A stretch of DNA of 64,000 bases. Source: Asterella californica. Taxonomy: Eukaryota > Streptophyta > Marchantiopsida > Marchantiales > Aytoniaceae. Shown piece by piece: positions 25,309 to 63,219 of this stretch; positions within the stretch are counted from its first letter, which is position 1; each line of letters begins with the position of its first letter. The notes under the pieces are model-generated. The model was not told where the DNA came from. It ran no database searches and was given only the letters and a program-made list of their open reading frames with translations. The stretch spans positions 28,829,501 to 28,893,500 of the forward strand of contig JAYKYS010000001.1 in NCBI GenBank assembly GCA_036924285.1, read 5' to 3'. Made by a program: the position numbers and the translations under genes.

Positions 25309-26519
25309 AGGTACGCACGTGTTTCCAGTCCCGTGCACGCCGAGGATACATCAACAGTTACTACTGTACTTGGAAACTCGCAAGTGAGCTATGAGTCACG
25401 GCACCGATTCTCCACATTCTGGTCTCCAGAATGGTATTATATACGACAGACCACCTCGAGAGCTCTGCAGGCGACACACGTGTTCGCCGTGCACATACTT
25501 CTACTTCCCCACGATACCTTCACTATTTCATGTTTACGTCCATTCTTCTATTAGTATCACGATGAGTCACAAGATTTTCTCGGCTAGATTATAGTTTAAT
25601 TAGATAATCAGAATAGAGAGAACTTCCCTTATGACTTTATATTTTCTTCTTCTTCACGTTACCATACTTACTCTCTGTCGTGCCTCGTGTATCTCTTCGA
25701 TCCTATCATTGTTTCTCTTCTCATTTGATGTATATTTCGCTGCCATAGTGGTGTACAGGAACCGTGGGTCGAGTCCTCCCGGCGGGGGGACTCATGCTGT
25801 GCAATGGCAGCAGCATACGGCTGCAGAAAGCCCCACAGCGAAAAGAGGCCTGAAAAAAACCAAAACAAAAAAAGTTGTTGTACAGGAAATGTTCTGATAA
25901 CCGTGTATCTTATATCTGGGGTGGTCCCAGTTGATATATCACGCAATCGTAAGATGCACTAATATTCAGCCACGGAAGACAGAAGATGCCAGATCAAGCT
26001 CAAGGAACAAGAGAATGGGAGAGTATGATCGTGATCTGTAGTTACAACAGGAGGATGACCACAGAGTCAACCCACTAATTCACCTCCTTTCATGCTTCAG
26101 GTGACTCCTAGGCAGCTTGATCACCACTGATAATTCCTTTATCTTCAAGGCGTATACGTAGCTCAAGACCAGCAAAGTCAAGTCACTCCTCTTTCCCCAA
26201 ACCCCACGCGCTTCGGTTTCGAACCATTAAGTGCCACGAGTCCCAACCGTTCCACCTTCGTCGTCGGCCAGCAAACCGAAACACGAGACTGGAGCTTTAG
26301 CATGCTCTGAAACTTGAGTCATGGCAAAGTATTTTACTGGACAGTGTAGTCATGGGATATCATGATCATCAACAATATGGGATACGGAACCCTCCGGGCC
26401 CATATATAGACGTGCTGTGAGGTCCCTGTTCACGATGATCACGGCAGATCCTCCCTGATCTTCAAAGTAGAAATCAATAAATATGCATGCTCGATTCACT
26501 TCTGGGAACTTTTTTTCTC
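25309..26519. other. Intergenic; weak SINE-like box
   Basis: No gene. Around 25765 the plus strand has GTGGGTCGAGTCCTCCCGGC, resembling a pol III B box and T-arm, with TGCCATAGTGG slightly upstream. A related sequence occurs on the minus strand near 28720. This is suggestive only. Confidence 0.35.
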
Positions 26520-26840
26520 CTTTTGTTAACAAGGTATTATATAAATGTTAAATAAAATATATAGATTAAGTAGATTTAAAAAATTAAAAAATTTCATAAA
26601 TGTTATTTGTTAGCCCATGCCTGCAAACACGGGGAGAACAGAAACAAACCCATAAGTGTTGGGCGGATCGGCGCGCTTCAGGAAGTACAAGTGCGCGGGA
26701 CTGTAGTCGTGAATGGGTAACATTAATTACAGGTTTAATTTAATACCTAACCCTTCCAGCCGGAAGGGTTAGGTATTAAATACATGCATGTCCCCCTCTT
26801 CCGAACTTGGAAGAGGGTGAATATGCATGCATAAAAAAAA
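26520..26840. repeat. Paired-hairpin repeat, copy 1
   Basis: Hairpin A: 19-bp perfect arms 26739-26757 and 26762-26780 (TTTAATACCTAACCCTTCC) with a 4-nt loop. Hairpin B: 9-bp arms 26794-26802 and 26809-26817. The ~200 bp before them match the right end of the element at 45.25-46.65 kb in blocks (CCATGCCTG-AAACAC, CTTCAG-AGGTACAAGT). The inverted partner end was not found here, so this may be a solo or truncated end. Confidence 0.7.
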
Positions 26841-30140: not shown

Positions 30141-31340
30141 CTAGAGGAGTGCATCAACATCTTTCTCCGTCTGGTAATTGTTGTTCAAGCCTCGTGAGAG
30201 ATCTGCATTCCATAAGTACACTCCACTCCACTGATTTCCTTCACTCCTGAGTTGAGTGACACAATTGTAGAAAGTGGATCCAGTGATGGTATTGGGATCC
30301 CCAGCTACTTGTGTGCTGACCCCCACTTTGTTTACCGGCAGGGACTGCAGCACTTGGTAGTACCTTGTCTTGTACTTGGCACAAGTGTTAAGACCCTCAC
30401 CGTAAAACTGGTAATTCGCGAGGTCGATGTAGCTGCCGTAGGAGTCGTGGAGACTTTTGTAGATGGCGAGCTGGTCATAACCAGGGGCAATACTGACGAT
30501 GTTGATCACTCCATTGTTCTTGAGCCTCTGGATCAACTGCCCGATCAAGGAAACGAAGTTGGTGGTACCAGAAGGGAATCGCTCGATGTCGATGTCTATT
30601 CCATCAGCACCGTAGTCCTGGATGATGGTGGTGAGAGAAGTCACGGCGTTGTTGAGCCACTGGGTGGTATTCGACGGGTTGTACCACTCGACAGGGACTT
30701 CAACCTGGCTAGAATTGTAGAAGACAGAACCCCCGATAGCAACGACGATCCTTCCGTTGGAGTGAGCTTGTCTCCAAGCCTTTGCTGCCGATTTCGTCAG
30801 TGACGAACTCCAGTAAGCTGTGTGGACTCCATTAGCGTTGGCTCCACTTGAGGTCTTGTCGATTGCAAAGGACAAACCCAGCACCCAAGTTCTATTACTC
30901 TGGGTGATAGGTATCTCGTTGAACGTAATGGGTACACCATTGGACCCGAGGTAATCAAACAGCATTCTCCCAGGCTGTAGGCCTTTCGGGGCTGCATAAG
31001 AGCATTGGCCTTGGCATCCAGTACCACAGTAATCGGCCGTGTTTCCACAATAGCCGTACTGGCTGCAGCACAGATTGTTCCGACAGTTGAATGTCACTGC
31101 TCCCAGTCCGCACTCGTTTGCTGCAGCGCACTGACTCTGGCATCCGCTTCCACAGTAAGCTGGCGTCGTTCCGCAGTATCCATACTGGCTGCAGCACCGA
31201 TTGTTTGGGCACAAAGCTCCTCCAGCTCCTGATCCACAGTCCACTGCACAAGCCAGCTCCTGTAGAAAACTTGCGCAAATTAACAGCATCAAAGCAATCG
31301 CCGCCTGGTATTTGCTTCCAGCACCTTCCGTTATTGCCAT
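30141..31340 (-). CDS. Secreted chitinase: two hevein (CBM18) domains + GH18
   Basis: Intronless, 399 residues from ATG 31340; the frame extends 27 nt further upstream but without ATG. Residues 1 to about 31 are a signal peptide ([11 protein letters not shown]). Two hevein-type chitin-binding domains follow at about 35-71 and 77-113, each with eight cysteines and the C-C-S-Q-Y-G-Y-C-G core. A GH18 barrel runs from about 125 to 395 with the catalytic D-G-I-D-I-D-I-E (246-253), Glu253 being the proton donor, so it should be active. The barrel resembles the narbonin/chitinase-2-like GH18 branch. Family knowledge: it cleaves beta-1,4-N-acetylglucosamine chains of fungal walls outside the cell. 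Hevein domains in seed plants usually sit on GH19; hevein+GH18 is known from seedless plants. Confidence 0.93.
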
Positions 31341-31594
31341 CACGAGTTCCCGATTGTATAAGATCAAGATTCCAGCAGTCGCCGGAACTGCTTAGCTAGC
31401 CTAACGAGTAATATCAAGGAAGCTCCCCTCCAGACCTTGCCGAAATTCCGAGTACCTCAAGTCAACCGCCTCCACCGTAGAAGTCACTGATCAGTTGAAC
31501 TGATGGGTCGTCTGAGCTGCAGAAGCTTGCCTTCTGAGATCATGAAACTCCTAAGGCTGTATCGTTTGGTTGGAGTTGCATTCGGAGGTTCACT

Positions 31595-37726: not shown

Positions 37727-39227
37727 GATGGAATTTCGTATAGTCCGACGAACTACACAACGATCTAGATTCAAGTGCGACTCCGATCCGGCTCTGACAA
37801 CGGACGCCAACAAAGACCACAGAGCAAATGTTGGACTGCAAAAGAACCCGAAGCTCCTGGTGAACGAGAATGAGCAGCGCACGAGTATAAAAGACGTGTG
37901 TGGAGACGGGAACCACCCGCGGACGAAATACCGATTCTACCCATCTTCAGGTCTCCTTTTCATCCGTGGTCACTGCAGTCCCCTCCGACTGGGCTGACCG
38001 CATGGATATAGACGACTAAACTCTGGCTAAACTCTGGCTCTGGCTTCATTCCGGTTCAGGCAGAAGAACATATCCGGAGTATCATTATTCGAGCCAACTT
38101 GAATAGTAATACTTTATGCATAACGTACCATATACGAACTTGCAACTTCAAAAGTTATCCCCATCAGTAATTATTGACTGATCTTTCTGTTAGATTGTGT
38201 AGTAGATAGCTATGCTACGTGTTAGTATCCTTCGTTCTGCCTTGCTTTCTACTGAAAACAGGGCACAGTAAAGTAACAAGAAAGAAACACGTAAGAAGAA
38301 TAGAAAGGTTAACTTTCCTGAAAGTGACAATCGTGAAATTAATGTTAGTCTATCACACTATTGTGATGTACTGCTTCCCCCTCTTTGAAAACGCTCATAT
38401 GATGGTCCTTGAGCAGAAACCGAATCGCGAACTGTCGGTGTAAAAGGGCCCCAAATAGTTGGGAGTTTTCCCCTCCATAGCCCTGGTTGAGATAGATTAC
38501 GCTGATTGCTCATTTTAGTCCGTTAACATCTTCTCAGTTGAGGAAGGAGTGAAGACAGAAAAGACAATACCTTCAGAAGTTTAGAAAGTCGTATAGAAAG
38601 TCTTGATAAGCGGAGATCGTGAGAATAAGTCACTTATTGACTCATGACCAGAGCAAACTTTGACTTTTCCCCGGGTAGACTCCACCACCCTTATACCCAC
38701 TAAATCGTGATTGGAACTGAGCAGCATGGTTACCAGCAGTTGCGGTTTCAAGCAGTTTGAACTCGATGGATCTGATGCGAGATGTTAAGAGTCTGTGAGT
38801 TAACCTTAGTCGGCAACCAGTTGTACTCGGTCAAGTATCCAGGAAACGCCAGCTGATACCATCGGTGCTGGTTATGGACTGGTTATTAGAAAGCAAATTT
38901 ACTTAATATATATCAACAGTACCGAACTTAGAGGTATCCTAATCTACTAATGTAGCAAAAACTTCCTATCGGCGGCTTATGTTTTCGTCCTGTCTAAGCA
39001 TGACGACCAGGCCTAATTAGAGAAGATTGAAGCGGCTATCTGGTCGTAAGGGAATGGAATTCAAACGTCTCAGCACGAGGATCCTCGGTTTTTCAGCCGA
39101 AAGCCATCCCTTCGCCACGTAGACAGCATATAAAAGAAAATGACTCGACGCAATATGTCAACAAGAATGTTTAAATAACTGTTATGCACTCTTAGCTCGG
39201 TGGGGAGAGTCTACATCTCCGAAGGTG

Positions 39228-39254
39228 GAGGTGCAAGGAGATCACTTGCACCTC
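39228..39254. repeat. 10-bp hairpin
   Basis: GAGGTGCAAG (39228-39237) and CTTGCACCTC (39245-39254) around a 7-nt loop. A second purine/pyrimidine inverted motif (CTCTCATCTT / CAGATGGAG) follows, recalling the paired-hairpin family. Confidence 0.6.
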
Positions 39255-39399
39255 TCTCTCATCTTTCTCAGATGGAGAAACTTTAGTTTGCGGTTGGAAT
39301 TCTGTTCATGAACGACAGAACGAAGTAAAAGCTTTTCTGCATGTTAGGTGTGCTTTTAATAAAAAATTATTAAGTTAAAATTAAATTTGGAAAGTAAAA

Positions 39400-39655
39400 T
39401 ACAAATTCTTATAGTAGTAATTTGATATAAGCTCGTAATTTCTTTTTTGTGTTGATTACGTATCTAGTATGCTGGTAATCTGATATTCTTTCTTACAAAA
39501 ACAATTCTTATGCTAGTAATATGATATTGACTTTTACTCTCTGTGTCGAACACAACATTCTATCGAATGAACTCCATTACAAACAAGTGTTAGGCTAAAA
39601 ACAAACCTGAAAAATTAAAAATTCTTATGCTGGTTATCTGATATTGTCTTAATCG
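39400..39655. repeat. Interspersed short repeats
   Basis: A motif close to TTCTTATGCTGGTAATCTGATATT appears four times (about 39405, 39462, 39505 and 39622) separated by unrelated AT-rich DNA. Confidence 0.55.
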
Positions 39656-40996
39656 AAATATGCAGGTTGCATTGGTTTTAATAAAGAAGACAAGCATTAT
39701 TTCTCCATTTTTTTCCACGGGGAAGCTTTTACAACTGCCTTGTACAAAAAGTCTTTCTTGTGCATTTGTTCGCTTTATGTTATCAAAAATATATAGGTGT
39801 TAGTATTTAGGGTTTAGAGTGTTAAGTATGAAATAATAGACCAAATAATAGATGTTAAAAAGGAGAGAGTAACAATACCAACAAACAAACAAATATTTCG
39901 TACTGTTAGATAGCAATGATTCCACAATTTGTCGATTACCGTTTTGTAATGGAAGAGATTATTCATGGAATGTACATGTTGAGTTTGTAAGTATTCCATG
40001 GTGCACTTTTAGTCTTAGACTATGCAGAGACTTTGTAAAAGAATTTCTTTTCCTTTTCCTCTCAATCATGTGTGTGAACTCGACATGCGTGCAGCGATTC
40101 TGTAAATCTCATCGTAACACGAATTGACATTAAACTCCAGTTGCGGGTATAAAAGCAAAGAAAAGAATAATTCTCTTCTCCTTACAGTGTGCTTTAGGTT
40201 AGAAGAAGATACTGTTTTATACTAAGAAACCATTGAAATTTTATTTTAATATTTTTTAATGAGTACTCAATAGTTAGTAGTGAAAATCAATCCCAAGTGT
40301 AGAGGGTTGAGAAAGCTTAGATACAATTCCTCATTTAACTTAATACAAGCAAACTCTATCAGCAAAAACTATGTTAATGTAACAGTTAAATTTATTTGTT
40401 CGATAACAACACACCAGCATAATGAAGTCCTCTTGGTTACCAGACATATTTATAGGGGCATTTTGGTTTTATAAACCTCAATGTATATATGCAACCAAAA
40501 TGAGGTGATACATGAGAATAATAAGCACTGTACAAAGAAGAAACTAGGAGACCATCATTGGTTTAGAGACTAAATAAGCAAGCGCTACTTGGGCCATAGC
40601 TAAACTGAAGCATCCACATAAACATGATGAATATGTTCACCAAGATAAGTAAAATATTGTATAGACATTTATATTATGCAATCATGTCATATCTTTTCCA
40701 GAGGACATGATAAAAAGCCAAAGTGAACATAATTAAGTGTACATTCTTTTGACATTTAACGGCCTTCATTAAACATAAAACATCCAAAGAATAACTTTTG
40801 CTCATCACATGTGGGATTAACAATATATCACACCTCGAATAATCTAATGCTAAATGATAATAATATTAGCGCGCGTCTAACTTATAATCTTAAGGAAAAA
40901 TCTATCTGTTTCAGGCTACGGACGTGTTCCTCTAGAGACAGAGCATATGCAGCCAAAGTGCACTTCCGGCCGGGGGCCGGATAACGCCAAGCGGCG

Positions 40997-42197
40997 AGTG
41001 CGGCTGGTTCTCGGTTGGTGGGCCGTGCGTAGAGAGGGATTAGATAGGTTTTTCAAAAAAGAGCGGTCGCGCATATTAAGACGTGAAGGCATTAATACGC
41101 GAGCAGGGCGACTTTGCTGTTGTTAGATCATTTTTTGCGAAAAAGGGCGGCCGCGCATAGGGATGGCGTTAAGACGTGTTAAGGCGTTAGGGTATTCTGA
41201 TGTCAGCGGGGCGAGTTCGGTTCACGACGACTTAGGGCATTGATTCTCTCTAAGTTGGCGAGTCTGCGAGTCGGGCGAGTTTGGAGAAGCGGACTTTGGA
41301 CTTGCTGTGCAGATAGTTTCGTGCTTTCGCTCTCATTTTCTCGCTTCTTTGCTCGCATGGATTGGGACTCTTCGGTATAGCTGAAGGACGCCTTGATTCG
41401 TTCTTGTTGTCTTTGTCTTTGTTGCTGACAAACTCGTTCTTGTCGTTTTTCCTGCACGGTGCCTGGAGATCGTGCTACTGTGGTTGCTGCGTGGTTTTTT
41501 TGTGCGTGCTGTCTGGAGTTGCTCCTTGGTCCCGAAGATCATCCGTGGGTCGTTGTTGGTGGAAGTACTTCGATCGGGGATTGGATGGAGGTCGTAAGTG
41601 CGGCTGGTTCTCGGTTGGTGGGCCGCGCGTAGAAAGGGGTTAGATAGGTTTTTCAAAAAAGAGCGGTCGTGCGTATTAAGGCGTGAAGGCATTAATACGC
41701 GAGCAGGGCGACTTTGCTGTTGTTAGATCATTTTTTGCGAAAAAGGGCGGCCGCGCATAGGGATGACGTTAAGACGTGTTAAGGCGTTAAGGTATTCTGA
41801 TGTCAGCGGGGCGAATTTGGTTCATGATGACTTAGGGCATTATTTCTCTCTAAGTTGGCGAGTCTGCGAGTCGGGCGAGTTTGGAGAAGCGGACTTTGGA
41901 CTTGCTGTGCAGATAGTTTCGTGCTTTCGCTCTCATTTTCTCGCTTCTTTGTTCGCATGGATTGGGACTCTTCGGTATGGCTGAAGGACGCCTTGATTCG
42001 TTCTTGTTGTCTTTGTCTTTGTTGCTGACAAACTTGTTCTTGTCATTTTTTCCTGCACGGTGCCTGGAGATCGTGCTGCTGTGGTTGCTGCGTGGTTTTT
42101 TCGTGCGTGCTGTCTGGAGTTGCTCCCTGGTCCCGAAGATCATCCGTGGGTCGTTGTTGGTAGAAGTGCTTCGATCGGGGATTGGATGGAGGCCGTA
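40997..42197 (+). repeat. Two 600-bp tandem direct repeats
   Basis: Copy 1 is 40997-41596 and copy 2 is 41597-42197. Both begin AGTGCGGCTGGTTCTCGGTT and end near GGAGG-CGTA; they differ at roughly 4-5 % of positions plus one single-base indel. Each unit has an internal near-duplicate of about 100 bp around GCGGTCGCGCAT/GCGGCCGCGCAT and AAGACGTG/TTAAGGCGTT, which look like iterated sites. ORFs on the minus strand inside are repeats of each other and not credible genes. The arrangement ahead of the Rep gene suggests a promoter/origin region. Confidence 0.88.
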
Positions 42198-42667
42198 AGT
42201 GTCACGCGGTGGTGCTTTGACCTCGTGCAAGGCAATCGATGACAGGCAATTACTGCATGCCTCAGCAAGGCTGTTCGTTTACATGGCACAGCAGAAACCT
42301 CGGTTCTTGAACATCGTGGTTTCAGTTCTGCGTGCGGTCGCTTCGTTTATATCTTCCGTTCTTGCTCCATGAGCTGCTGTCAGTGTGGTGGACCATTCTC
42401 GCTTCCTGGACATCGTCCTGCATTGTCTTCGCTTGGTTGGTCCATCATTTGGTTTGGCTCGTTTCGCTATGACTTTTTTGCACGGAAGTGCATGCCGATG
42501 AGAACGGGTAAGTTTCCACCGTCAGTATGGAGTACCTTTGATCAGCTTTCGTGCACGCGAGTCCACGACTGCTGTCTTCCTAGGAGATATGTCTGTACCG
42601 CTTTCGACACTGCTCGACTATCAGGTGCGTTTGTGCGTCATGCGTGTTATTTTTCCCATCTTTGCAA

Positions 42668-43285
42668 ATGTTTGAGAGTAGTGACCACTGCGAGACTGTC
42701 CCCGACAGGGAGGAGGCTGTTGATTCCGTCGATAGTGAAGAGCAAGTACAAACTGTCCAGGAAGTGACTGGTGTGATCTCAGATCCAGACTTCGAGTTTC
42801 TGGATCTGAGTGGTGCTAGCCCTCATTTTTCTCTCTTGTCGTCTGAGACTCCAATGATTTCTTTCGGGGAGGAGTTGTTGCAAAAGACTCGTTGTTACAT
42901 TTACTTGCAGCTTGGATTTTCGCAGCAGCTTCCAGAGTTTTTGATTAAGTTCGATTATGTTCTCATAGGTAGAACGTGTTATCCCTGTGAGTTGCATCCT
43001 GTTCCCTTGCAATGGTTGGCTGGACCATTTCGATTTTTCTCATACTCTGTGGATAACTTTTACCTGTATTTGCAGGACAGGCGGTTTCGCATGTTCTCTT
43101 ATTCTGCCTGTTTTGCTCGTGCTGACGGTTCTCTGAGATCTACCGTGCACGCAGTTTATCGAACTCAATCTCATCCTTGTGTTTGTACTCAGGTTGACCT
43201 TGAGAACAGTGTTGTCATTTGTCGGCATTTCCCTCTGCAGCGATGTCTCTCCGTCGAGAGGCAAGGGCTAAGCGTCTCAGCCTAG
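42668..43285 (+). CDS. Unknown ORF upstream of, and overlapping, Rep
   Basis: 205 residues from ATG 42668; the frame is open further upstream to about 42644. It overlaps the Rep ORF by 43 nt in a different frame. The N-terminal ~55 residues are acidic (E-E-A-V-D-S-V-D-S-E-E); the remainder is rich in aromatic residues and cysteines (F-R-F-F-S-Y-S-V-D-N-F-Y). No known family recognised. Possibilities: an accessory protein, a Rep N-terminal domain joined by splicing (a pyrimidine-rich TTTCCCTCTGCAG acceptor-like site ends at 43240), or a chance ORF. Confidence 0.4.
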   Translation: MFESSDHCETVPDREEAVDSVDSEEQVQTVQEVTGVISDPDFEFLDLSGASPHFSLLSSETPMISFGEELLQKTRCYIYLQLGFSQQLPEFLIKFDYVLIGRTCYPCELHPVPLQWLAGPFRFFSYSVDNFYLYLQDRRFRMFSYSACFARADGSLRSTVHAVYRTQSHPCVCTQVDLENSVVICRHFPLQRCLSVERQGLSVSA

Positions 43286-44193
43286 AGGTTTCTGTTACTG
43301 TGTGTACTGGTGCTGACCTTGATCTTCGTTTTTTTCCTGTTGTTTGCGAGTTTTTGAAGAAAGAGTGTGTTTCTGGTATATTTTCCATTGAAAGGGGTGG
43401 GTCGCTGCTTCATCTTCACTTTCAGGGTGTTATCTGTATATATGACAAATCGACCGTGCAGGTGAAGAAGCGCATTTCTCAGGCCTTGGGTTGGGACAGG
43501 GACAAGCCACTAGGAGCAGAGATTTGCGTGAAACAGCTTACCAACAAAGGTATCCATACCTTTGTTGGCATGGTGGGCTACTGTCTAAAGGATGAGAACC
43601 AGGAGCACCACCAGGCTGTAACTAAGAACATAACTGATGCTATGATTGACGACGGCAGAGAATTGTTTATGCTGATGGGGGCCGCGGACACCAAGAATCG
43701 AGTTGAGTTAACCTACTTGAATATCCTGCCCCGAGCTTTACAGTACAACAGGTATAAGAGCCCTAATCCCCTTTCAAATACTTTGCCTCGATGTTTACGA
43801 GCGATGCTGGCATCTGGGAAGTACACAGCATCTCCGCGTTGGCTCACACAGGCAGGTATTCATAAGTGCCGTTCAGATTCGCTGTGGAATTCGTTTATCA
43901 GGCCTGGAGATATTACAGCAAGTGACATTTACAATATTTTCTTCTTTAGAGAGAGTGCTCGCTGCCCTCACTGTTCCCGCAGATACTACAATAGCAAGGA
44001 TGGTGTCGATGAAGAGGCGGACGCAGGAGTGGAGGTTCCACCAGTTCTAGAGCAGCACGACGTGGGGACCGATCCTGAGAGTCCTGGCATTGAGGCGCAC
44101 GCCGATATGTTTACTAGTGTGCAGCTCTCGGAGTACATCCCCCTCACCGAAGCGATGACTCGTAGCACCGGACATGAGAGGGGTATAGCGTAG
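43243..44193 (+). CDS. HUH endonuclease (Y1 Rep), Replitron-like transposase
   Basis: 316 residues from ATG 43243. Motif 2 is L-L-H-L-H-F-Q-G: H57-L-H59 is the HUH metal-binding pair, followed by Q-G as in CRESS-type Reps. Motif 3 is V-G-Y-C-L-K-D: Y113-x-x-K116 is the single catalytic tyrosine and lysine. A possible motif 1 is the strand V-S-V-T-V-C-T-G near residues 17-23. There is no Walker A box or helicase, so it is neither a Helitron RepHel nor a virus Rep with its S3H domain. A C-terminal region has F-I-R-P-G-D-I-T-A-S-D-I-Y and a C-P-H-C pair (241-244). HUH enzymes nick single-stranded DNA and form a tyrosine link. The frame is intact, so recent activity is possible. Confidence 0.75.
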   Translation: MSLRREARAKRLSLEVSVTVCTGADLDLRFFPVVCEFLKKECVSGIFSIERGGSLLHLHFQGVICIYDKSTVQVKKRISQALGWDRDKPLGAEICVKQLTNKGIHTFVGMVGYCLKDENQEHHQAVTKNITDAMIDDGRELFMLMGAADTKNRVELTYLNILPRALQYNRYKSPNPLSNTLPRCLRAMLASGKYTASPRWLTQAGIHKCRSDSLWNSFIRPGDITASDIYNIFFFRESARCPHCSRRYYNSKDGVDEEADAGVEVPPVLEQHDVGTDPESPGIEAHADMFTSVQLSEYIPLTEAMTRSTGHERGIA

Positions 44194-44236
44194 ATTGAAC
44201 AGTGCAGTATAGTATATTACCTTACTTATGTTACCA

Positions 44237-44266
44237 ACACAGCAAACCGTGTAGAGTATGCTGTGT
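44237..44266 (+). terminator. 8-bp hairpin after Rep
   Basis: ACACAGCA (44237-44244) and TGCTGTGT (44259-44266) around a 14-nt loop, 43 nt after the Rep stop. It could be the subterminal hairpin of the element or merely 3' UTR structure. Confidence 0.4.
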
Positions 44267-44300
44267 GTAATACGACTTGTGTACACCGCTTTTTCTCAGA

Positions 44301-44306
44301 AATAAA
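44301..44306 (+). terminator. Poly(A) signal after Rep
   Basis: AATAAA 108 nt downstream of the Rep stop on the same strand. Confidence 0.5.
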
Positions 44307-44340
44307 GTAACGTGGGTCACCGTACCCCTTTAACCCTAAA

Positions 44341-45251
44341 ATCGAAAAGATACATGACGCGTAGAGTCCAGCAAAAAGAGAGTAGTATCATCAAAACGGC
44401 TCGTCAGTGGCCCGTGCGCAAAAATAATTCCCAAACCAAAAAATAAAACGCAAAAGAAGTCCAGAAACGTGGGCACGACTATAATGCAACGAAGTCTTAA
44501 ATTCAAGAAAGCAGAAACACGCCTGCATGTGTTTCCTTTTTCTCTCTCTCATGTTATCATCTTAGATTCCAGGTAAGTATGGCAAAGTTCAAGTAGCATG
44601 TTACCTTGTATATTTCTCATAACAAACTCGGGTAGTCGTGACGGGCACAGACAAAGTTACCTGTCGCTAGTTTCTCAAATTACTCGTGAAGCGGAGTTAC
44701 AGATTTTATGTTTCTTTCGTTAAGTTAACCTTGGACACGCACTGACTTTGTTGTTGGTTAGCAACCCCTCGTACATGTAACTTAGGAAGGTTTCCAAGTT
44801 TTCTCTTTAGGTTATGTCTGGATGGTGTCGTAACTGTAAATGCAATTATCACTTAACACTTACATATTCATTTACTTTTTCTTGACAGATTACTAGATTT
44901 CTGTAAAATACTTACATCTTTTTCAAGAACAGAAAGCGAACAAAAGCTTCCTAAGTTGGTATTGCATGCAAATCCATATCACTTTTTAAGTCTAACGACA
45001 AGGTTTTATGTGTTATGAGAAAGTAATCATGAGAACAGTCTTTTCAAATGTCGTTTCCTCACAGAAAAGGAATAATACCGTGGAGCATAAAGCACGATGA
45101 GTTTCGAAACTAGATGTAGTGAACCAGTTGGAAAGTGGATCACTGCAGTGTAACTAACCTCAAAGTCAATAGAATATGTTTTCTAGAGCTCAGCCAATCT
45201 TACTTATTACTAGAAGAATATAGTTTCCTTCTGGTACCCGTCTTATTCACC
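44341..45251. other. Intergenic, nothing recognised
   Basis: AT-rich DNA to the right of the Rep element, without ORFs or repeats that I can identify. Confidence 0.4.
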
Positions 45252-46653
45252 CGTGCATATTATTATTCACCTCTTCCATCTTTCGAGAGAGGAGGCAAAT
45301 ATGCAAGGGTTTAATTTAGTACCTTTTCTTTTCAACCGGAAGGGTTAGATAGTAAATTAAACTCACTCTGAATTAATGTATAAACATTTTCAGGTTTCTG
45401 GACTTGTACCTTTAGCAGCACATCTGTGTATTCATGCTTTATGGTTTATACCCTAGTCTGCTTATGTTTCCAGACATGGACTAACAGTTAATATTTACAT
45501 AAACTTTTGATTATTTTCATCCACTTGGTATATAATTTCTGTTTAACACCTATATATGTTCTAGAATCATTAAAGAAACAAAAGTTCTCCACATCGAGCA
45601 TGCATATATATGCATGTATCCATGCGTTGAATTTTTATACCTAACTTTTCTTTCCTCACATTGAATCAATGCATGAATGACTACAGCTTCTCGGAGTTTG
45701 TACCTTTTGAAGCGTGACACCTTACTCATGACTTATGGTTTATCTCCTGCTCTCCTCGTGTTTCCAGTGATAAGTTAACATATAATATTTTTATTATTTT
45801 TATCCACTTGGTATATATATTTTTATTTAATATTTATATATTTCCTCGATAACAATAAAGTAGCAAAAGTTCTCAGCAGTTCATACAGCCTCTGTCATGT
45901 CTATCTCACTTCAGTACGTTCAGTTGTCTTTTACAACGCCGTGGATGCTCATCAGTCAATTCTTTTACAACACCGTGGATGCTTATCAGTCAAAGGTCTT
46001 CCCGCATTGTTATCAGCGAAGCTAGCCTAGTACGGTTCAGAATATGTAGGAGTCTGAATATCATCCCGGATTAAATTACAAGGTGAGCAGATTAAGAGTT
46101 ATTCCTGCGTGGGAAATGTTTAAATCAATCTTTACAAATATATTTTTCAAGTCATATGTATGAGAGAATAAATATACATAGAAACGTCCGGAAAGGAAAA
46201 ACGGAGGAACACGACAAGCGGAGGTTTTGGGAGGTAAAACTGAACTGCAGGATAAGACGGGAGGGCACTGTAATGCCGTCTTTGGTGTAACGTCTCCAAT
46301 ATGCATGCTGGATGAACTCTGGAAACGTTTTCTCGCATAATGTTATCGATAATATATATATATATATTAAATAAAATATATATATTAAGTAAATATAAAG
46401 AATTAAAATATTTTATAAGAAATATGTGTTATCCATGCCTGGAAACACAGGGAGAATAGAAGATAATCCATAAGTCTTGACCCGAATGCCGCACTTCAGA
46501 AGGTACAAGTCCGAGAATCTATACTCAATAATACATTAATATACACTGAGGTTAATTTAATACCTAATCTTCCTGTCGGAAGGGGTAGGTATCAAATTAA
46601 ACTCCTGTATATTTACCTCCTCCATCAGAAGATGGAGAAGGTGAATATACATA
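45252..46653. mobile_element. Paired-hairpin element with long inverted ends
   Basis: The left ~330 bp (from TGCATATTATTATTCACCTC) and the right ~320 bp (reverse-complemented) match in order: hairpin B, hairpin A with TTTAATTT-GTACC, GGACTTGTACCTT, CTTATGG-TTAT, TGTTTCCAG-CATGGA. The ends are thus long imperfect inverted repeats carrying two hairpins each. A further left-end copy (about 45600-45870) is nested in tandem. There is no coding capacity, so it is a non-autonomous fold-back element of unknown superfamily. Related ends occur at 26.5 kb and 52.5-53.55 kb. Confidence 0.65.
45927..45994. repeat. Tandem duplication, period 34 bp
   Basis: TCTTTTACAAC-CCGTGGATG followed by CT-ATCAGTCAA occurs twice, with two substitutions. 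Confidence 0.85.
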
Positions 46654-54409: not shown

Positions 54410-55353
54410 TGTAACACCTTTTGCTTTATCCCACCAGATGGCATTCGGACAGTGATTAACCAAAAAGTGGCAGCTGCATGGTCATAAAGCAGGCTCAAGG
54501 AGACTAGATAAAAGAGTGTCGCGAGCCCTAAAGGGGCCATTCTCAGTTTCAGTTTTTGGGAGAAGAGCACTCTTGGTGATGAGGAGAGAAGACTGTATTT
54601 TCAGAATAGAAAGATTGTATCTTGGAGTTCAGAAAACAGAGAGCATGCAAATCTGATTCCTTGGAGAGTAGACTTGGAGAGCAGATCTGGAGAGCAGACT
54701 TGGGGTGTTGATTAGATCGCTGACTTGGGGTCTGATCTGTTGAGTAACAGAAATCAGGGCGTTCAGAGTGAAAGTAGGTTCTCTGGCGAAGTCTTAGTCA
54801 CAGCAGAGTTGCTGAGTAATGAAGGATTGCCGGTCCAAGAGCGTTGCGTGACCTTGTCAGCAAGTAAACGCCATGTAATGTATATGAGCCCGTGACTTGC
54901 TCCATTCTGATAAGTAGGCTTGAGTTGTGTGCCAAAACTGAGTTGGGCGCATCTGGTGTCGTGTTGACTTTATTTCGGTGTAATTGCTTTGCCTTCCTAC
55001 TTCCTAGCATCTACTAGGTCTCCTAGTCTTGGCGGTTGCTCCTTGTGAGTCCTGACGTTCCGACTTGATCACCAGTAGCGGAAGCGCTGCCCAAATTTTA
55101 TGCAACCCAGGTTTAGAATAGTTCCACCTGTATTTAGTAACCTAAGATTGACCAGAGACCTACAAAGGACTAGTTGGTTATTCGAAACTCGTTCAACAGT
55201 TATTGAATCCTCTATGCTTATTAGCGGATAGTTTAAAGAACTAGATCTGGAGACACAAATAAAGTATACAGGTCTCACAGGGAGGTTCACATTCGGCAGT
55301 TCATTGGTTAGAGATTAAAGAATCTGTTTAGAGATCTACGGTCGAACGTTACA
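54410..55353 (+). repeat. 5' LTR of chromovirus
   Basis: Starts TGTAACACC and ends ACGTTACA; the 6-bp terminal inverted repeat TGTAAC/GTTACA defines the ends. It is followed by AT and the primer-binding site. Confidence 0.95.
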
Positions 55354-55355
55354 AT

Positions 55356-55367
55356 TGGTATCAGAGC
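55356..55367 (+). promoter_or_regulatory. Primer-binding site (initiator tRNA-Met)
   Basis: TGGTATCAGAGC, an exact match to the plant initiator tRNA-Met site, 2 nt after the 5' LTR. Confidence 0.92.
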
Positions 55368-55403
55368 AGGTTCAGGTTGAATCTTTGCTGAACACCATCG
55401 ACA

Positions 55404-57128
55404 ATGGAAGCCGTGTCGACTGGGATGGACGAGATGCAGGCGTTTCTGAAGAAGTTGGAAGGCCGACTTGAGCAAGTGGAAGCTGAGAACAAGGTGCTCA
55501 AGGCAGATTTAGCTCAAGCAAAAGCGACACAGGAGAAAGAAGCAGAGGTCCTTGTACCGCAAGCTGAGCAAGTCAAGGATTTAGCACTGCTGGGTGAAGG
55601 AGCAGTTGATGCTACTCAAGCAGATAAGAATGAAGATGGGTCATAGAAGGCGCAAGAGAATGTTGCGGAAGGCAGCTCAGCCAAAGAAGGGCACAAGCGG
55701 AAAGTGAAGTGGGCTGAACCAGCAACGCTATCAACCTTCAACGGTGAGAAAAGCTTTTCCAAGTTTGAGTTATGGGTTACTGAGATGGAGAATTACTTGG
55801 AGAACTTCGATGAGCGCAGTTGGTTCACCTATGCTGTTAGTAGACTGGAAGGAGAGGCTAATGAATGGTATGGAGGTCAACAGCGGATGAGGAGTTTGAA
55901 CGGTACAACTCCTATGTCCACTTGGCCGGAGCTGAAGGATGAACTCAGAAGACATCTGGTACCGGTGGATGAAGCTACACAATTTCGGCTGGAGCTCCTT
56001 CATCTGAGACAGACAGGGAGTATCAGGCAGTATCTCCAGCAATTTTCTGAGTTGGTTACTCGTTTGCACATGGTGGATCGCACCGATTTGCTGTTTCACT
56101 TGAAGAAAGGTCTGCAAGGTTGCTATGCTAGTGTGTTTGATAGCTGGGTTATGTTTCACAAGTCCGAGGACATGCAAGACTTGTTTGCATTTCAAGAAGC
56201 AGCAGAGAACACTAGGGAACGTAACTACACCGTGCAACCCTCCAAGTTTCAACGTGGAACAAGTGGTGGCGAGCCTAGTAGAGGATTTTGGCGCAATCCT
56301 CAAGGACAGATAGCGTCCTCTCAGAGTAGAGATGGTAGAGGACGTGGTGGTGGAAGATTTGGTGCAGCAGGAAGGAGATTTCCTCGTGGGTCTCAACAGC
56401 AAGGAGTTACTCGTGGTCCTACTCAGACACGACCTACAGGATCTTATGCATCCAATGCAGGATCCAACCAAGCTTCGACTTCAGGTGCTAGGAGCAGTGG
56501 AGCTAGCAGTGCTACACCTTCAAGGACGATCATCTGTTTTCGATGCGGACGAGATGGTCATATCGCTCGTGAGTGTCCTCAACGTTCAACAACGAGCAAC
56601 GTTCGTGGGTTGACAGCTGAAGAGACAACCAGTGTTGAAGAACCAGTTGAGGCGACTACAGAAGCAGAGGTATGTGCTGGTGAGCATTTGGTAGAACATG
56701 GAGATTTTCTACCGTGGATTGAAGTAAAAATAAGAAACCACCGGTGTTGTTTGCTTATTGATACTGGAGCAGATGTGAATGTCTTGGATGAAAAACTGGT
56801 CAGGACCTTAGGGGTGACTAGAACCAAGATAATGAGCCCGTTGTTGGTAAGGTTTGTGCAAGGCAGCACAACCGTTACAGAAAAGCTCATGAGTGTTCCT
56901 ATTACTGTTGGAGAGGTAACTAGGAAGCATGAGTTTTTAGTTATGAGCTTAGGTGACACGATGGAGGATATCTTGTCCTGGTCTTGGTTACAAGAGACCA
57001 AGGCAAAGCTAGATGTTCAAGAAGGGAACATCATAGTCATAGATCGATGGGGCTCGGGTCAACCACATCCATTGGTCATCAAAGAGAGACCTAAGGAGCC
57101 AAACCATGCTGTCCGTAGGTTCCAATGA
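55404..57128 (+). pseudogene. Chromovirus gag-protease part of gag-pol
   Basis: Begins with ATG at 55404 and a coiled-coil-like stretch (L-E-G-R-L-E-Q-V-E-A-E-N). An in-frame TAG at 55644 interrupts it, and the same frame then continues through capsid (W-F-T-Y-A-V-S-R-L-E-G-E-A). An Arg/Gly-rich basic region follows, then the zinc knuckle C-F-R-C-G-R-D-G-H-I-A-R-E-C at about 56535-56575 and the protease site D-T-G-A at 56760. An in-frame TGA at 57126 ends this section. No frameshifts. Confidence 0.9.
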
Positions 57129-58910
57129 GCCAAGGTGGCATTTCAGATCTGCACAGCTAGATAATTTGGAAAGCAGATCAAGTCAGTAGACGAAGCTTGG
57201 GTTGCAGTGATGTCTAAACCTAAGGTAGAGACGGATGAGAAAGAACGTGTTGCTGCTCTTCCCATACATCATGATATGCAAATGCTGATTGAGAGGTATT
57301 CTCATATAATGCCGGATCAGTTACCAACATGACTTCCTCCGAGGAGAGCCTTGGATCATGTCATTAATCTGGTTCTTGGGGCTACACCTATCGCAGTGCC
57401 ATCAAGACGCATGTCGTTTGATGAGCTAACAGAGCTGAAGACTCAGTTGAAAGAATTGATAGCTCAAGGTATCTTACGACCCAGCATATCACCTTATGCT
57501 GCACCGGTCTTGTTCGTGGCCAAGAAAGATGGTGGTATCCGCATGTGTGCAGACTACCGTGCACTTAATAAGGTTACTGTCAAGAACAAGTATCCTCTTC
57601 CTCTCATGGATGAAACCACGGATCGGTTGGCCACAGGAAAGTACTTCACCAAGTTGGATCTTCGTTCTGGATATCATCAAATTCGGATCAAAGAAGGAGA
57701 TGAAGAAAAGACGGCTATAAGGACGAGGTATGGCTTGTTTGAGTATACAGTGTTGCCGTTTGGATTGTCCAACGCACCTGGTACTTTCTGCAGGCTAATG
57801 AACGAGATCTTCAGAGATCTCTTGGATGAGAGTGTTATCGTGTACTTAGACGATATCATCATCTTCTCATCCACTTGGAATCAGCATCTAGCAGATGTTG
57901 AAATGGTGTTTAAGCGTCTAGAAGAACATCAACTCTACCTCAAGAAGAGCAAGTGCTCTTTTGGACAAGAGAGTGTGGTGTTTCTAGGATGTTTGATCGA
58001 TGCGCAGGGTATTCATCCTAACAGGGCTAAGATTCGAGCCATTGTTGAATGGAAGAGACCTGAGAGTGTTCATGAGCTCAGATCTTTTCTTGGGTTAGTC
58101 ACATATTTTTGGCGCTTTGTTTATCAGTTTGCGCATAAAGCCGCACCTTTGTTTGGCTTATTACGCAAGACTTCCAAGGTTGTTTGGAATCCAGTAGCTG
58201 AAAGAGCGTTTCAGGAGTTGAAACAAGCACTGACAGAGATGCCCGTGCTAGCTCTTCCAAAGATGGAAGAACCTTTCGAGGTTCACACAGATGCTTCTCA
58301 ATGGGCCATTGGAGGAGTGTTGATGCAAGAAAAGCATCCAATGGCTTACGAAAGTCATAAGTTTTCAGAAACAGAGGAAAAATGGCCTGCTCATGAACAG
58401 GAGATGTTCGTAGTTGTTCATTGTCTGAAGCGTTGGGAGCATTATTTGTTATCAAGCAAGGTTACTGTTGTGACGGACTGCGAGGGTAATACATACTTTC
58501 AGAGTAAACCCCGTTTGTCCCACAAACAGCAGAGATGGCAAGTGGAGCTTGCACGTTTTGATATCGAATGGCTGTATCAAAAAGGGAAGGAAAATATTCC
58601 AGCGGATGTGTTAAGCAGACGTGTCCAGGCGTTAACAACCCAGGACACAAGTGAAGAGCTTTTGGATCGAATCAGACAAGCATTGCCAGATGATCCTCAG
58701 GCTCAACGTTGGACCAGCCAACAAGGGAGAGATCCATTGGTACGTCATCTCTCATTTCGCAATGGCCTTTGGTGTTATAAGCAAACCAAGGTCTATGTTT
58801 CAGCTGGAGCTCTAAGGACACTAGTCATGCAAGAATGTCATGATTGTGAACTAGCTGGACATGGAGGACAGAATAGAACGTTACAACGACTTAAAGAGCA
58901 GTTTTATTGA
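57129..58910 (+). pseudogene. Chromovirus RT-RNase H-integrase finger part of gag-pol
   Basis: Same frame as gag. In-frame stops are TAA 57162 and TGA 57330 before RT, and TGA 58908 in the integrase zinc region, where the family usually has Trp. RT has K-L-D-L-R-S-G-Y-H-Q-I, L-P-F-G-L-S-N-A-P and the active site Y-L-D-D at 57843. RNase H has V-H-T-D-A-S, and P-A-D-V-L-S-R closes it. The integrase finger histidines are in E-C-H-D-C-E-L-A-G-H. Confidence 0.9.
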
Positions 58911-58916
58911 CCAACC

Positions 58917-60185
58917 ATGTTGGAGGATGTGATCAAGTACGTGCAGACTTGCTTGACATGTCAGCAACAACGAACTGAGCGGAGGAGACCTGCAGGATTG
59001 CTGAGACCATTACCAATACCTGATGGACCTTGGGAAAGCATAAGTATGGACTTATGCACCGGTTTACCTGAGTCAGGAGGTTTTGACACTTTGCTAGTTG
59101 TCATCGATCGTTTCAGCAAACAAGCTCACCTCATCCCTTGTAGGGAAGCAGTAACGTCAAAAGGTGCCGCTGAACTATTCATTCGATATGTTTTTAAGTA
59201 TCACGGGATGCCTAAAGATATTGTTTCAGACTTGGATAGGAGGTTTGTTGCTGAGTTTTGGAAGGGTTTGTTTCGAAGACTCGGAACTATCCTCAAGTTC
59301 AGTTCCTCCTATCATCCTGAAACTGATGGTCAGACGGAAAGGACGATACAGATAGTAGAGCAAGGGTTGAGAAACTATATCATACGAGATCAAAGTGATT
59401 GGAGCGAGCACTTGGACTTGGTGGAGTTTACATATAACAACACTAAGCATTCGAGTACAGGATTTAAACCATTTGAAGTGGTTTATCGAGGCTCTCATGC
59501 ACCTTGGACTCCTATAGCTCTGGCTACCAAGGGGCATGAAAACACAAGAAGGTCAAACCAGGATCCTCCAGATCTAGAGACTTTCATACGTGTTCAGGGT
59601 ACTGTGTTTCAAGAAGCCAAGAAACACATGGAGAAGGCACAACAACGGTATGCCAAGTATGCAAACCGTGGTAGGCAAGACGTACAGTTCGAAGAAGGGC
59701 AGAGGGTCTGGTTGAGAACCAAGAACTTCAGAATACCAGCAGGGGTGGACTTAGCCAAGAAGCTTCTTCCAAAGTGGGTCGGACCATTCCTGATTGGGAA
59801 GAAGTTAGGTCCTGTGACTTGTAAGTTACGTTTTCCAGCTAGTATGAAGCATTATCACCCCATCATTCATGTTTCTAACTTGAAAATGTTTCGTGAAGAA
59901 CTAGAATCGTTGCCAGGAAGATATCAGAAATGGCATCCAGTGTTAGAAGCATTACCAAGAGCTGATGATCTTGAGTTGATTGAGATAGTAGATCATCGAG
60001 CATCACCGAATCCAGATGGAGCTGGAGAACCCGTCACTCAATACCTATGTCGTTGGACAGGTAGAGTACCGGGATTGGTAAGTGAAGCTTGGGAGTACCT
60101 AGATGATCTAACATTGTACAAGTTCCAAGAACCACTGCGAAGATACTTTGTGAGACGACAGTCCGCAGTGGTCTCTGCCAGCTAA
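58917..60185 (+). pseudogene. Chromovirus integrase core and chromodomain
   Basis: Same frame, 422 residues, open to its natural stop. Finger cysteines are C-L-T-C. Catalytic Asp in S-M-D-L-C-T, Asp in V-S-D-L-D-R-R-F and Glu in H-P-E-T-D-G-Q-T-E-R. A GPY/F-like module follows (W-V-G-P-F-L-I-G-K). The last ~75 residues form a chromodomain-like unit (E-L-I-E-I-V-D-H-R, then Y-L-C-R-W-T-G, then A-W-E-Y-L-D-D-L), which in chromoviruses steers integration to particular chromatin. Confidence 0.9.
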
Positions 60186-60587
60186 GCGGTGGATTGAATC
60201 GAGTCAGAAGAGTCATGCCAAAGGGCCCTTCAAAGACACTGGAACCGAGTAGATCTGGCCAATCTGCTCGTCTAAAGGTGGAGTTGTGGTCTGTTTACTG
60301 CTTATGGCTGTCAGATGTCAATCAGGTTTAGACTGATGCTACTATGTGTGTATCATAGTAAAGAGGTGGATAAACGAAAACTGACGAGTTCACCACCTGG
60401 AAGCTAGGGTTCTGTCTCACCCGAAAGCTTCAATGAATGCTCGGTAATGGAGCATAGCTCTGAGAAAGAGCTTAACATTATCCTGGATGGGATAATGTTC
60501 CTCTGGATTTGAGGAAGTGTTGTCCTAATGTGGTATTGCAGATACCGCAGTTCAGTGGAAGAACTGCGTTTTGCTGGTTGGGGCGAT
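60186..60587 (+). other. Chromovirus 3' non-coding region
   Basis: 402 bp between the gag-pol stop and the 3' LTR, ending in the purine-rich GGTTGGGGCGAT that serves as the likely polypurine tract. No ORF. Confidence 0.7.
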
Positions 60588-61531
60588 TGTAACACCTTTT
60601 GCTTTATCCCACCAGATGGCATTCGGGCAGTGATTAACCAAAAAGTGGCAGCTGCATGGTCATAAAGCAGGCTCAAGGAGACTAGATAAAAGAGTGTCGC
60701 GAGCCCTAAAGGGGCCATTCTCAGTTTCAGTTTTTGGGAGAAGAGCACTCTTGGTGATGAGGAGAGAAGACTGTATTTTCAGAATAGAAAGATTGTATCT
60801 TGGAGTTCAGAAAACAGAGAGCATGCAAATCTGATTCCTTGGAGAGTAGACTTGGAGAGCAGATCTGGAGAGCAGACTTGGGGTGTTGATTAGATCGCTG
60901 ACTTGGGGTCTGATCTGTTGAGTAACAGAAATCAGGGCGTTCAGAGTGAAAGTAGGTTCTCTGACGAAGTCTTAGTCACAGCAGAGTTGCTGAGTAATGA
61001 AGGATTGCCGGTCCAAGAGCGTTGCGTGACCTTGTCAGCAAGTAAACGCCATGTAATGTATATGAGCCCGTGACTTGCTCCATTCTGATAAGTAGGCTTG
61101 AGTTGTGTGCCAAAACTGAGTTGGGCGCATCTGGTGTCGTGTTGACTTTATTTCGGTGTAATTGCTTTGCCTTCCTACTTCCTAGCATCTACTAGGTCTC
61201 CTAGTCTTGGCGGTTGCTCCTTGTGAGTCCTGACGTTCCGACTTGATCACCAGTAGCGGAAGCGCTGCCCAAATTTTATGCAACCCAGGTTTAGAATAGT
61301 TCCACCTGTATTTAGTAACCTAAGATTGACCAGAGACCTACAAAAGACTAGTTGGTTATTCGAAACTCGTTCAACAGTTATTGAATCCTCTATGCTTATT
61401 AGCAGATAGTTTAAAGAACTGGATCTGGAGACACAAATAAAGTATACAGGTCTCACAGGGAGGTTCACGTTTGGCAGTTCATTGGTTAGAGATTAAAGAA
61501 TCTGTTTAGAGATCTACCGTCGAAAGTTACA
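60588..61531 (+). repeat. 3' LTR of chromovirus
   Basis: 944 bp, TGTAACACC to AAGTTACA, the same length as the 5' LTR. Differences are scattered substitutions, with a small cluster in the last 70 bp. Confidence 0.95.
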
Positions 61532-63219
61532 AACAATGAAGTAGTATATTGGTACGAATCTACTTGTCCCGTAGATTCTTACGACTGCGTGAGGTCGACT
61601 CCAGTCATAGTTCAAATGGGAATATCGTTCCAAAAAGATAATTAATCCGTCCGAGGAACCAGAGAGTGTATACATTGTTCATAATCTGTGTTTTTTGAAA
61701 ATTAGTTAATTGGAGAGAGAGTGACACCAGAGCACTATCTCTTTTCTTACATATCATGCGAAAGACTTTCACTTGGATACATATTGCGCGGAGGTTCGCA
61801 CTTGGTGAATATAGTGGAAATAACAGCTGGAAACCCATAAAGCACAAGCTGAATCCTCTGGGTATTATTCTTCTATACAAGTACTGACCATTCTGAACCA
61901 ATGCTCAGTCTGAGGCGTTACTGCCGTCGAGATACTGACGTGGCAAAGTGACGGACTACAGTGATGTGGCTGCTCTTCAAATTTGTTTCTGCTGTGGTCC
62001 ACAGAATCTACGGCTTTACAGTGACCACGTTCCTTCTCTCCTCAAGTTCCGACCCAACCAAGTAGAGTACGACTGAGACAGACTGTGATTTTCGCCGAAA
62101 TCTTCTAAATTGAGTTTGCCTGGTCTAGCACTTGGACTACGATGCAAGGCAAAGATTACACTTGTGCAAGGTGTGAATGCGATAACGGGAAGCAGACGTC
62201 GAGAATATCAGCTAAGGTGTCACTTTGATTTAGGGTTTATGATCTCTGTCGCAATTCTTGTTCGGCAAATCGGCCCTTTGTGGAGCTGGTTCTTAGTTTC
62301 AGCCGAGAGAATTGTTATCGAGACTCTAGAGGAGGGCGTGGAGTTGGGCGGCGGTCGATTTTGACTAGGTCATGAGGCGTTGACCGTTGTTTTCAGAAGC
62401 TTTTGGTTCACGAGGAGCAGTCAGGCCTTCGCCCAAGCTGCATAAGGTAAGGACACCGTACTTGACATATGGTTGAGGGAGTGATACGGTTCGTAAGAGG
62501 TCATGTTCTTGATTGGTTTTCACACCCTCATAGTCCAAGCGCGAGTAAGGTATTTTTGGCGTGTCTCATTTTTGAATTGTAACCGTGAATATATTTTCCT
62601 TCTCTTGCGTTCATTGCCGCATATGCGCAGCATTCTTGTCTGAAATCTCTCAGGCGGACTATAGTCGCTGTAAATCACGTTAGGATTTCTGTGTGCATTC
62701 CACGCGTGACAGGAGAATGAGAAGCCTATAGAAAAAGTGTTTTGTGTACCGTCCGGTGTAGCTTGGTTCCAAGTTTAAGACAACAACCGTTCGTCGATCT
62801 GATAAGAGTGTCAGTCTCTCACGATGACAGCCACCGGGAACTCGACTGCAGTTCTGGTGATGAAGTTGTCCTTGTACCTTTCGGCTGAGCGTACATGTTC
62901 AGGCGTGTGTGTGAAGTGTCCGTATCGGTCTCTTTTCGGCAGTGAGGACAGTTCAGATGTTCGAGTGGGAAACTCGGAGGTCAAATTTCCTTCTGATGAG
63001 ATTAGACCGTTCATCAGCTCTGTTTGATGACAAGACCGTGGCACCTTCTTGAGCTCTGAACAATTTACCTTGTTTTGAGGTAGTGAGGAATGTGGTGGAA
63101 GCCAATTTTGTACGTTCGGCTAACATGGTCTTTTACCTATGTGAGATGCACTCTCCGGCATCTGCTACCGTCACCAATCATGCAGGGGTTGAAGTCGTTG
63201 CTTTCAAGGCTTTGTACGC
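61532..63219. other. Upstream region of the K/R/S-rich gene
   Basis: No separate gene supported. ORFs 61605-61901 (minus), 62110-62364 and 62824-63027 have no domains. The part near 62.1-63.2 kb probably holds promoter and 5' UTR (perhaps with an intron) of the gene starting at 63220. Confidence 0.4.

Follow-up and report, generated by a model that had tools for sequence, protein, structure and literature searches.

A copy of a probable two-gene Replitron family, with a single-tyrosine Rep and a conserved upstream gene, in a plant genome

In the DNA window analysed here (the whole 64,000-nt stretch of contig JAYKYS010000001.1, numbered from its first letter), an element of ∼3.55 kb carries Rep and an upstream open reading frame (ORF), ORF1, and we read it, with a probability of about 0.82, as one copy of a high-copy two-gene Replitron family in the genome of a plant, probably a liverwort. 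Its ends are imperfect direct repeats, the family is dispersed to unrelated genome sites and ORF1 is a constrained protein-coding gene; Rep, as judged from a structure model and from sequence comparison, adopts the HUH fold and has a HUQ-type site and a single conserved tyrosine, in YCLK. An initial annotation of the window had described a Replitron-like element with a Rep gene, and this reading is partly supported, but it had missed ORF1, the correct ends of the element and its direct terminal repeats. The plant setting is inferred from the Rep relatives, all 15 of which are from the liverwort Riccia sorocarpa.

RESULTS

Rep and its HUH domain

43243..44193 (+): Rep, Replitron HUH endonuclease, 316 aa, identified by PF21859 (E 5.9e-18), predicted fold and genome family
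43390..43425 (+): putative metal site E50, H59 and Q61, with H57; conserved in Riccia and genome copies
43579..43590 (+): YCLK, with putative nucleophile Tyr113 and Lys116; Tyr in 39/40 genome copies and 14/15 Riccia rows

The initial annotation reported an uninterrupted 316-residue frame with HLHFQG and YCLK motifs and no helicase, and each of these was confirmed. Rep starts with ATG and has no internal stop, and its open frame of 329 codons from stop to stop was matched in none of 1000 dinucleotide shuffles of 40965-44340, where the longest open frames reached 231 codons at the 99th percentile and 310 at most; a length of 233 codons, that of the upstream frame, was attained in 9 of the 1000. 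HLHFQG begins at residue 57 and YCLK at residue 113, and a six-frame translation of the window contains the H-x-H-x ... Y-x-x-K pattern only once. In Pfam scans, the score of Rep for PF21859 Replitron_HUH was 65.9 bits (cut-off 28.5), the other two matches of Rep were sub-threshold, and none was a helicase; all 11 rows of alignment A1 also matched Replitron_HUH.

The predicted fold of Rep contains the HUH beta-sheet on which the initial annotation had made its reading depend, and the single-tyrosine Replitron assignment is upheld by this fold together with the Replitron_HUH match. Moreover, Rep is not a single-copy host gene, since at least 130 matches to a dispersed family were found in the genome (516.7 Mb, 773 contigs); 126 of 4072 first-look candidates were scored, so that this count is a lower bound. 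Active-site residues were counted in 40 genome copies, i.e. 43 less the window copy and two duplicates, and were E50 in 38, H57 in 38, H59 in 37, Q61 in 37, Y113 in 39 and K116 in all 40. Two protein searches with Rep returned 10 and 14 proteins, 15 different ones (P0001-P0015), with Rep parts 36-52% identical to ours over the aligned regions. Among the rows of their alignment (A2) that cover each position, E50 and H59 are present in 12/12 and Q61 in 11/12 (one H), and Y113 is present in 14/15 rows. The expectation that both motifs would be kept in homologues thus held for YCLK but not for the first histidine, as residue 57 is N in six, Q in five and K in one of the 12 covering Riccia rows. 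H57 would have been either gained in this lineage or lost in Riccia. The residues common to genome copies and Riccia are E/H/Q, which we take to be the HUQ form of circovirus and nanovirus Reps.

The closest folds to the Rep model are viral Rep domains, as would be expected if the gene were the integrated Rep of a CRESS (circular Rep-encoding single-stranded) DNA virus and no transposon. This explanation was already disfavoured and is now highly improbable: the best sequence family is Replitron_HUH and a helicase is lacking, the element has defined terminal repeats and is dispersed over hundreds of kb to Mb in >100 places, and the scan made of IMG/VR viral contigs found no relative encoded there.

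A second gene upstream of Rep

42668..43285 (+): ORF1, putative zinc-binding protein, 205 aa, upstream of Rep in 43/43 distinct loci
42977..42997 (+): CxPCxxH motif of ORF1 (C104, C107, H110), invariant in 10/10, and in 21/21 open copies
43178..43228 (+): SWIM-like CxCx(11)CxH motif of ORF1 (C171 to H187), in 20/21 open copies

ORF1 was first suspected from its resemblance to the N-termini of Riccia P0011, P0012 and P0013 (BLASTP E 7e-5, 1e-3 and 4e-5, respectively), and among 778 ORFs of the six frames, a profile of these three proteins significantly matched ORF1 alone (E 2.5e-6), the second-best E being 0.16. A match to ORF1 lay upstream of Rep in 51/51 listed loci, which correspond to 43 distinct places after removal of re-fetched ones. 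Both frames are open (Rep >295 codons, ORF1 >180 codons) in 21 of 36 copies. The ratio of non-synonymous to synonymous substitution rates (dN/dS) was determined for 17 partly non-independent pairs; for ORF1 it was 0.10-0.58 in the 16 pairs with usable dS, and for Rep 0.10-0.39 in 12; two close pairs, which differ by few changes, gave Rep values of 0.79 and 1.24, and in three no value could be computed.

CxCx(n)CxH is the pattern of SWIM zinc fingers, and CxCx(8-14)CxH is found in 20/21 open copies of ORF1; of the 140 ORFs in the window that are ≥80 aa long, one has it. Ten ORF1 proteins gave no SWIM match in Pfam (listed up to E 10), no convincing match to any other family (best E 0.036) and no PDB match. 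This lack of a family or reliable fold is what might be expected if ORF1 came from an adjacent or older element and travelled along by chance, which we consider improbable, for ORF1 is present at every distinct locus across subfamilies, lies within the element ends, is conserved as a protein and has relatives beside Rep in Riccia.

The frame analysis covered 36 copies, with two duplicates and five copies without a Rep start excluded. The ORF1 stop lies -8 to +77 nt from the Rep ATG in 35 of these copies, and in the remaining one (L008) the two are fused in one frame. If -1 ribosomal frameshifting or splicing of a short intron joined ORF1 and Rep into one protein, this fusion and the N-terminal position of the ORF1-like part in the Riccia gene models P0011-P0013 would be explained, and a TTTCCCT read in frame from the sequence at 43228-43234 could serve as the slippery heptamer. 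However, the copies differ in relative frame (2 in 15, 1 in 20 and 0 in one), Rep retains its own conserved ATG behind a spacer rich in insertions and deletions, no splice site pair or heptamer is common to the copies, and the sequence 3′ of the heptamer folds no better than shuffles. Hence we regard a single protein as unlikely. ORF1 most likely encodes a separate zinc-binding helper protein, and since it overlaps Rep, the two may be translated in a coupled manner or from separate transcripts.

Ends and architecture of the element

40945..44496 (+): whole Replitron element, ∼3.55 kb; right end 44493 or 44496, from limits of homology among relatives
40945..40959 (+): left terminal repeat ATATGCAGCCAAAGT, from aligned left ends of 16 relatives; direct repeat by inspection
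44481..44496 (+): right terminal repeat ATAATGCAACGAAGTC, from aligned right ends
40965..40981 (+): GC-rich subterminal hairpin TCCGGCC/GGCCGGA, from DNA folding against shuffles
40998..42198 (+): two tandem 5′ units of 600 and 601 bp, 95.8% identical to each other
44301..44306 (+): AATAAA, possible polyadenylation signal, read from sequence

When fetched loci were aligned to the window, the homology of relatives set in at 40945 and ended near 44496. An element is thus present where the initial annotation had put one (40965..44340), but it starts 20 bp further left and ends ∼155 bp further right than annotated. In related subfamilies, pairwise DNA comparison fixed the ends from near-identical pairs in unrelated flanks (L043/L046 99.2%, L036/L037 98.4%, L041/L049 98.0% and L031/L032 97.8% identical). 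ATATGCAGCCAAAGT and ATAATGCAACGAAGTC are imperfect direct terminal repeats, of the form ATATGCARCnAAAGT / ATAATGCAACGAAGTC with the core ATGCA, and are short and direct as in Replitrons. The right end is placed at 44493 or 44496 because the last three bases, after GAA, differ between copies (GTC in 5/11). Ten relatives are 2.56-2.83 kb long, which, like the 3.55 kb here, is within the Replitron range.

The left hairpin has a DNA fold z of -3.13 and was equally stable in 2/200 shuffles; 12 of 6393 71-nt windows were at least as stable, including its own overlapping window, and its pairs are retained in 81.9% of cells (12 tips). The initial annotation had also placed the element in a sharply GC-richer block. 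The GC content is 0.506, 0.491 and 0.466 in three successive kb from 41001, higher than in the near neighbourhood (0.343-0.348 at 39001-41000 and 45001-46000), but positions 1-38 kb span 0.330-0.508, so that the block is ordinary for the whole window.

Copies, insertion sites and age

Near-identical copies of the family lie at unrelated sites, so that it is dispersed as well as multi-copy. The copies L002, L003 and L004 (contig C81) are ∼33-36 kb apart with identical flanks, and represent a duplicated segment, not separate insertions. Counting this segment's three copies, the base 5′ of the left end is A in 16/16 listed relatives. No consistent target-site duplication was found in 11 type-A copies, where the top rows of the scan were the terminal repeats themselves, or at 8 exact-end sites. 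Exceptions which we do not dismiss are AGTAA at L007 and, at both L041 and L046, offset matches of 4-5 bp; L036 in addition has a repeat of 12 bp, which begins 8 nt past the presumed right end. No empty site was found in the genome, as the joined window flanks matched their own place and one partial place at 69%.

Right ends at L019, L046, L015, L020 and L027 are adjacent to further left ends resembling AATATGC or GTCATAATGCGGGC, or at most ∼50 bp away from them, a pattern suggestive of clustering or of insertion side by side. At L025, a short inverted copy of the right end directly follows the right end.

The initial annotation suggested that this may be a recently active copy, which was not supported: the nearest fetched relative (L005) is 95.07% identical over 2210 bp, and its Rep contains two stops. 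The window copy shows no sign of youth, while other subfamilies have moved recently. Whether it is a silent, ageing relic despite its open frames is a closer question, and we give this somewhat less than an even chance. Besides the distance to L005, the tandem 5′ units differ by 22 transitions, 2 transversions and 1 gap column, as expected from decay of methylated cytosines, and the base at -1 is not the usual A. On the other hand, both frames are open and both ends present, dN/dS against L002 is 0.30 for ORF1 and 0.28 for Rep, and the transitions are not concentrated at CpG (8/22). The tandem unit is matched just once in L002-L004; its duplication may predate insertion.

Other features of the window

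Short repeats at 26480-26830 and 46298-46650, 75% identical over ∼300 bp, both begin with AATATGCATGC, and the former also terminates in GTGAATATGCATGC; they look like non-autonomous elements with like terminal direct repeats. From 26840 to ∼27570 lies a body without Rep that starts with the second perfect match to the Replitron 21-nt left-tip pattern (two in the window, 0.00 expected) and ends near GGTGAATATGC. The sequence AATATGCA occurs 12 times in the window on both strands, compared with ∼2.4 expected from rough base frequencies.

A Gypsy-type long terminal repeat (LTR) retrotransposon with gag, protease, reverse transcriptase, RNase H and integrase occupies 54410-61532. Its 945-bp LTRs are 99.0% identical, and thus it is probably a young insertion; no 5-bp duplication was seen in a small scan. 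On the minus strand, 30141-31391 is a chitinase-like ORF with chitin-binding and glycoside hydrolase 18 domains.

DISCUSSION

In the passages on them in PMC10741241, Replitrons have direct terminal repeats of 5-11 bp and no inverted ones, target-site duplications of 2-8 bp and lengths of 0.9-4 kb. Compared with Replitrons as described in Pfam and in what PMC10741241 and PMC13231165 say of them, the present element is alike in its Replitron_HUH domain, single tyrosine motif and lack of a helicase, and in its short direct terminal repeats, size and non-seed plant setting, whereas it differs in the conserved ORF1, the HUQ-type site, the lack of a regular target-site duplication and a weak C-terminal domain. 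ORF1 is not described in the passages on Replitrons in PMC10741241, PMC13231165 and PMC13253262, nor in Pfam. Helitrons, for which PMC10741241 gives 5′AT3′ as target in the part consulted, share the HUH chemistry and likewise lack a regular target-site duplication, but our element is without helicase and has one tyrosine motif and direct terminal repeats. The nuclease domains of circovirus and nanovirus Reps are ∼10-16% identical to Rep in structural alignments, and the element differs from them in its missing helicase and transposon setting. The Replitron proteins of Riccia share Rep and, in P0011-P0013, the ORF1-like part.

Two other classes were considered and rejected. Helitrons are defined by a Rep-helicase fusion, and CRESS-DNA virus Reps by HUH with a superfamily 3 helicase; the Pfam scans showed no helicase domain.

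Several observations weigh against a two-gene Replitron family. For Rep, PF21860 Replitron_C scored 14.4 bits, under its cut-off of 27 (7/11 alignment rows matched at E 0.01), and Foldseek gave no PDB match below 1e-3 for the model. For ORF1, the structure model is too poor for its fold to be judged, the Riccia proteins P0011 and P0012 lack the CxCx(n)CxH pattern, P0013 has it in altered form, and the gene models of all three join the ORF1-like part to Rep. As for the DNA, the window copy has C at -1, a consistent target-site duplication is absent from the sites scanned, and covariation in the left hairpin was not above shuffles (137/500; 12 tips).

For the two-gene Replitron that we favour, transposition may be pictured as follows. 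Rep would nick one strand at the left terminal repeat and would remain joined to the nicked strand via Tyr113. Because the right end has the same core sequence, a one-tyrosine Rep can cut a like site again, and this second cut would finish or release the strand, which would then be joined at a new place, mostly just 3′ of A, without a regular target-site duplication. The ORF1 helper may bind the ends, help to assemble the complex or take part in choosing the target.

The novelty of the element rests on ORF1. Replitrons are known from one founding paper, that of Craig in 2023 (PNAS e2301424120); if it describes ORF1, our finding falls to a new member of the group. More tentatively, and with slightly less than even odds, liverwort-type Replitrons in general may have two genes, a HUQ single-tyrosine Rep and a SWIM-like zinc-binding protein from an overlapping frame, and may move without target-site duplication and yield many short non-autonomous elements with AATATGC terminal repeats in common.

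This family offers at least 130 matches, several near-identical pairs and defined ends, so that where Rep cuts, which target rule applies and whether the second protein is required can be put to a direct test. A conserved partner gene would imply that Rep acts together with another protein, and annotators should be aware that ORF1 and short repeats with AATATGC ends may be part of the Replitron group.
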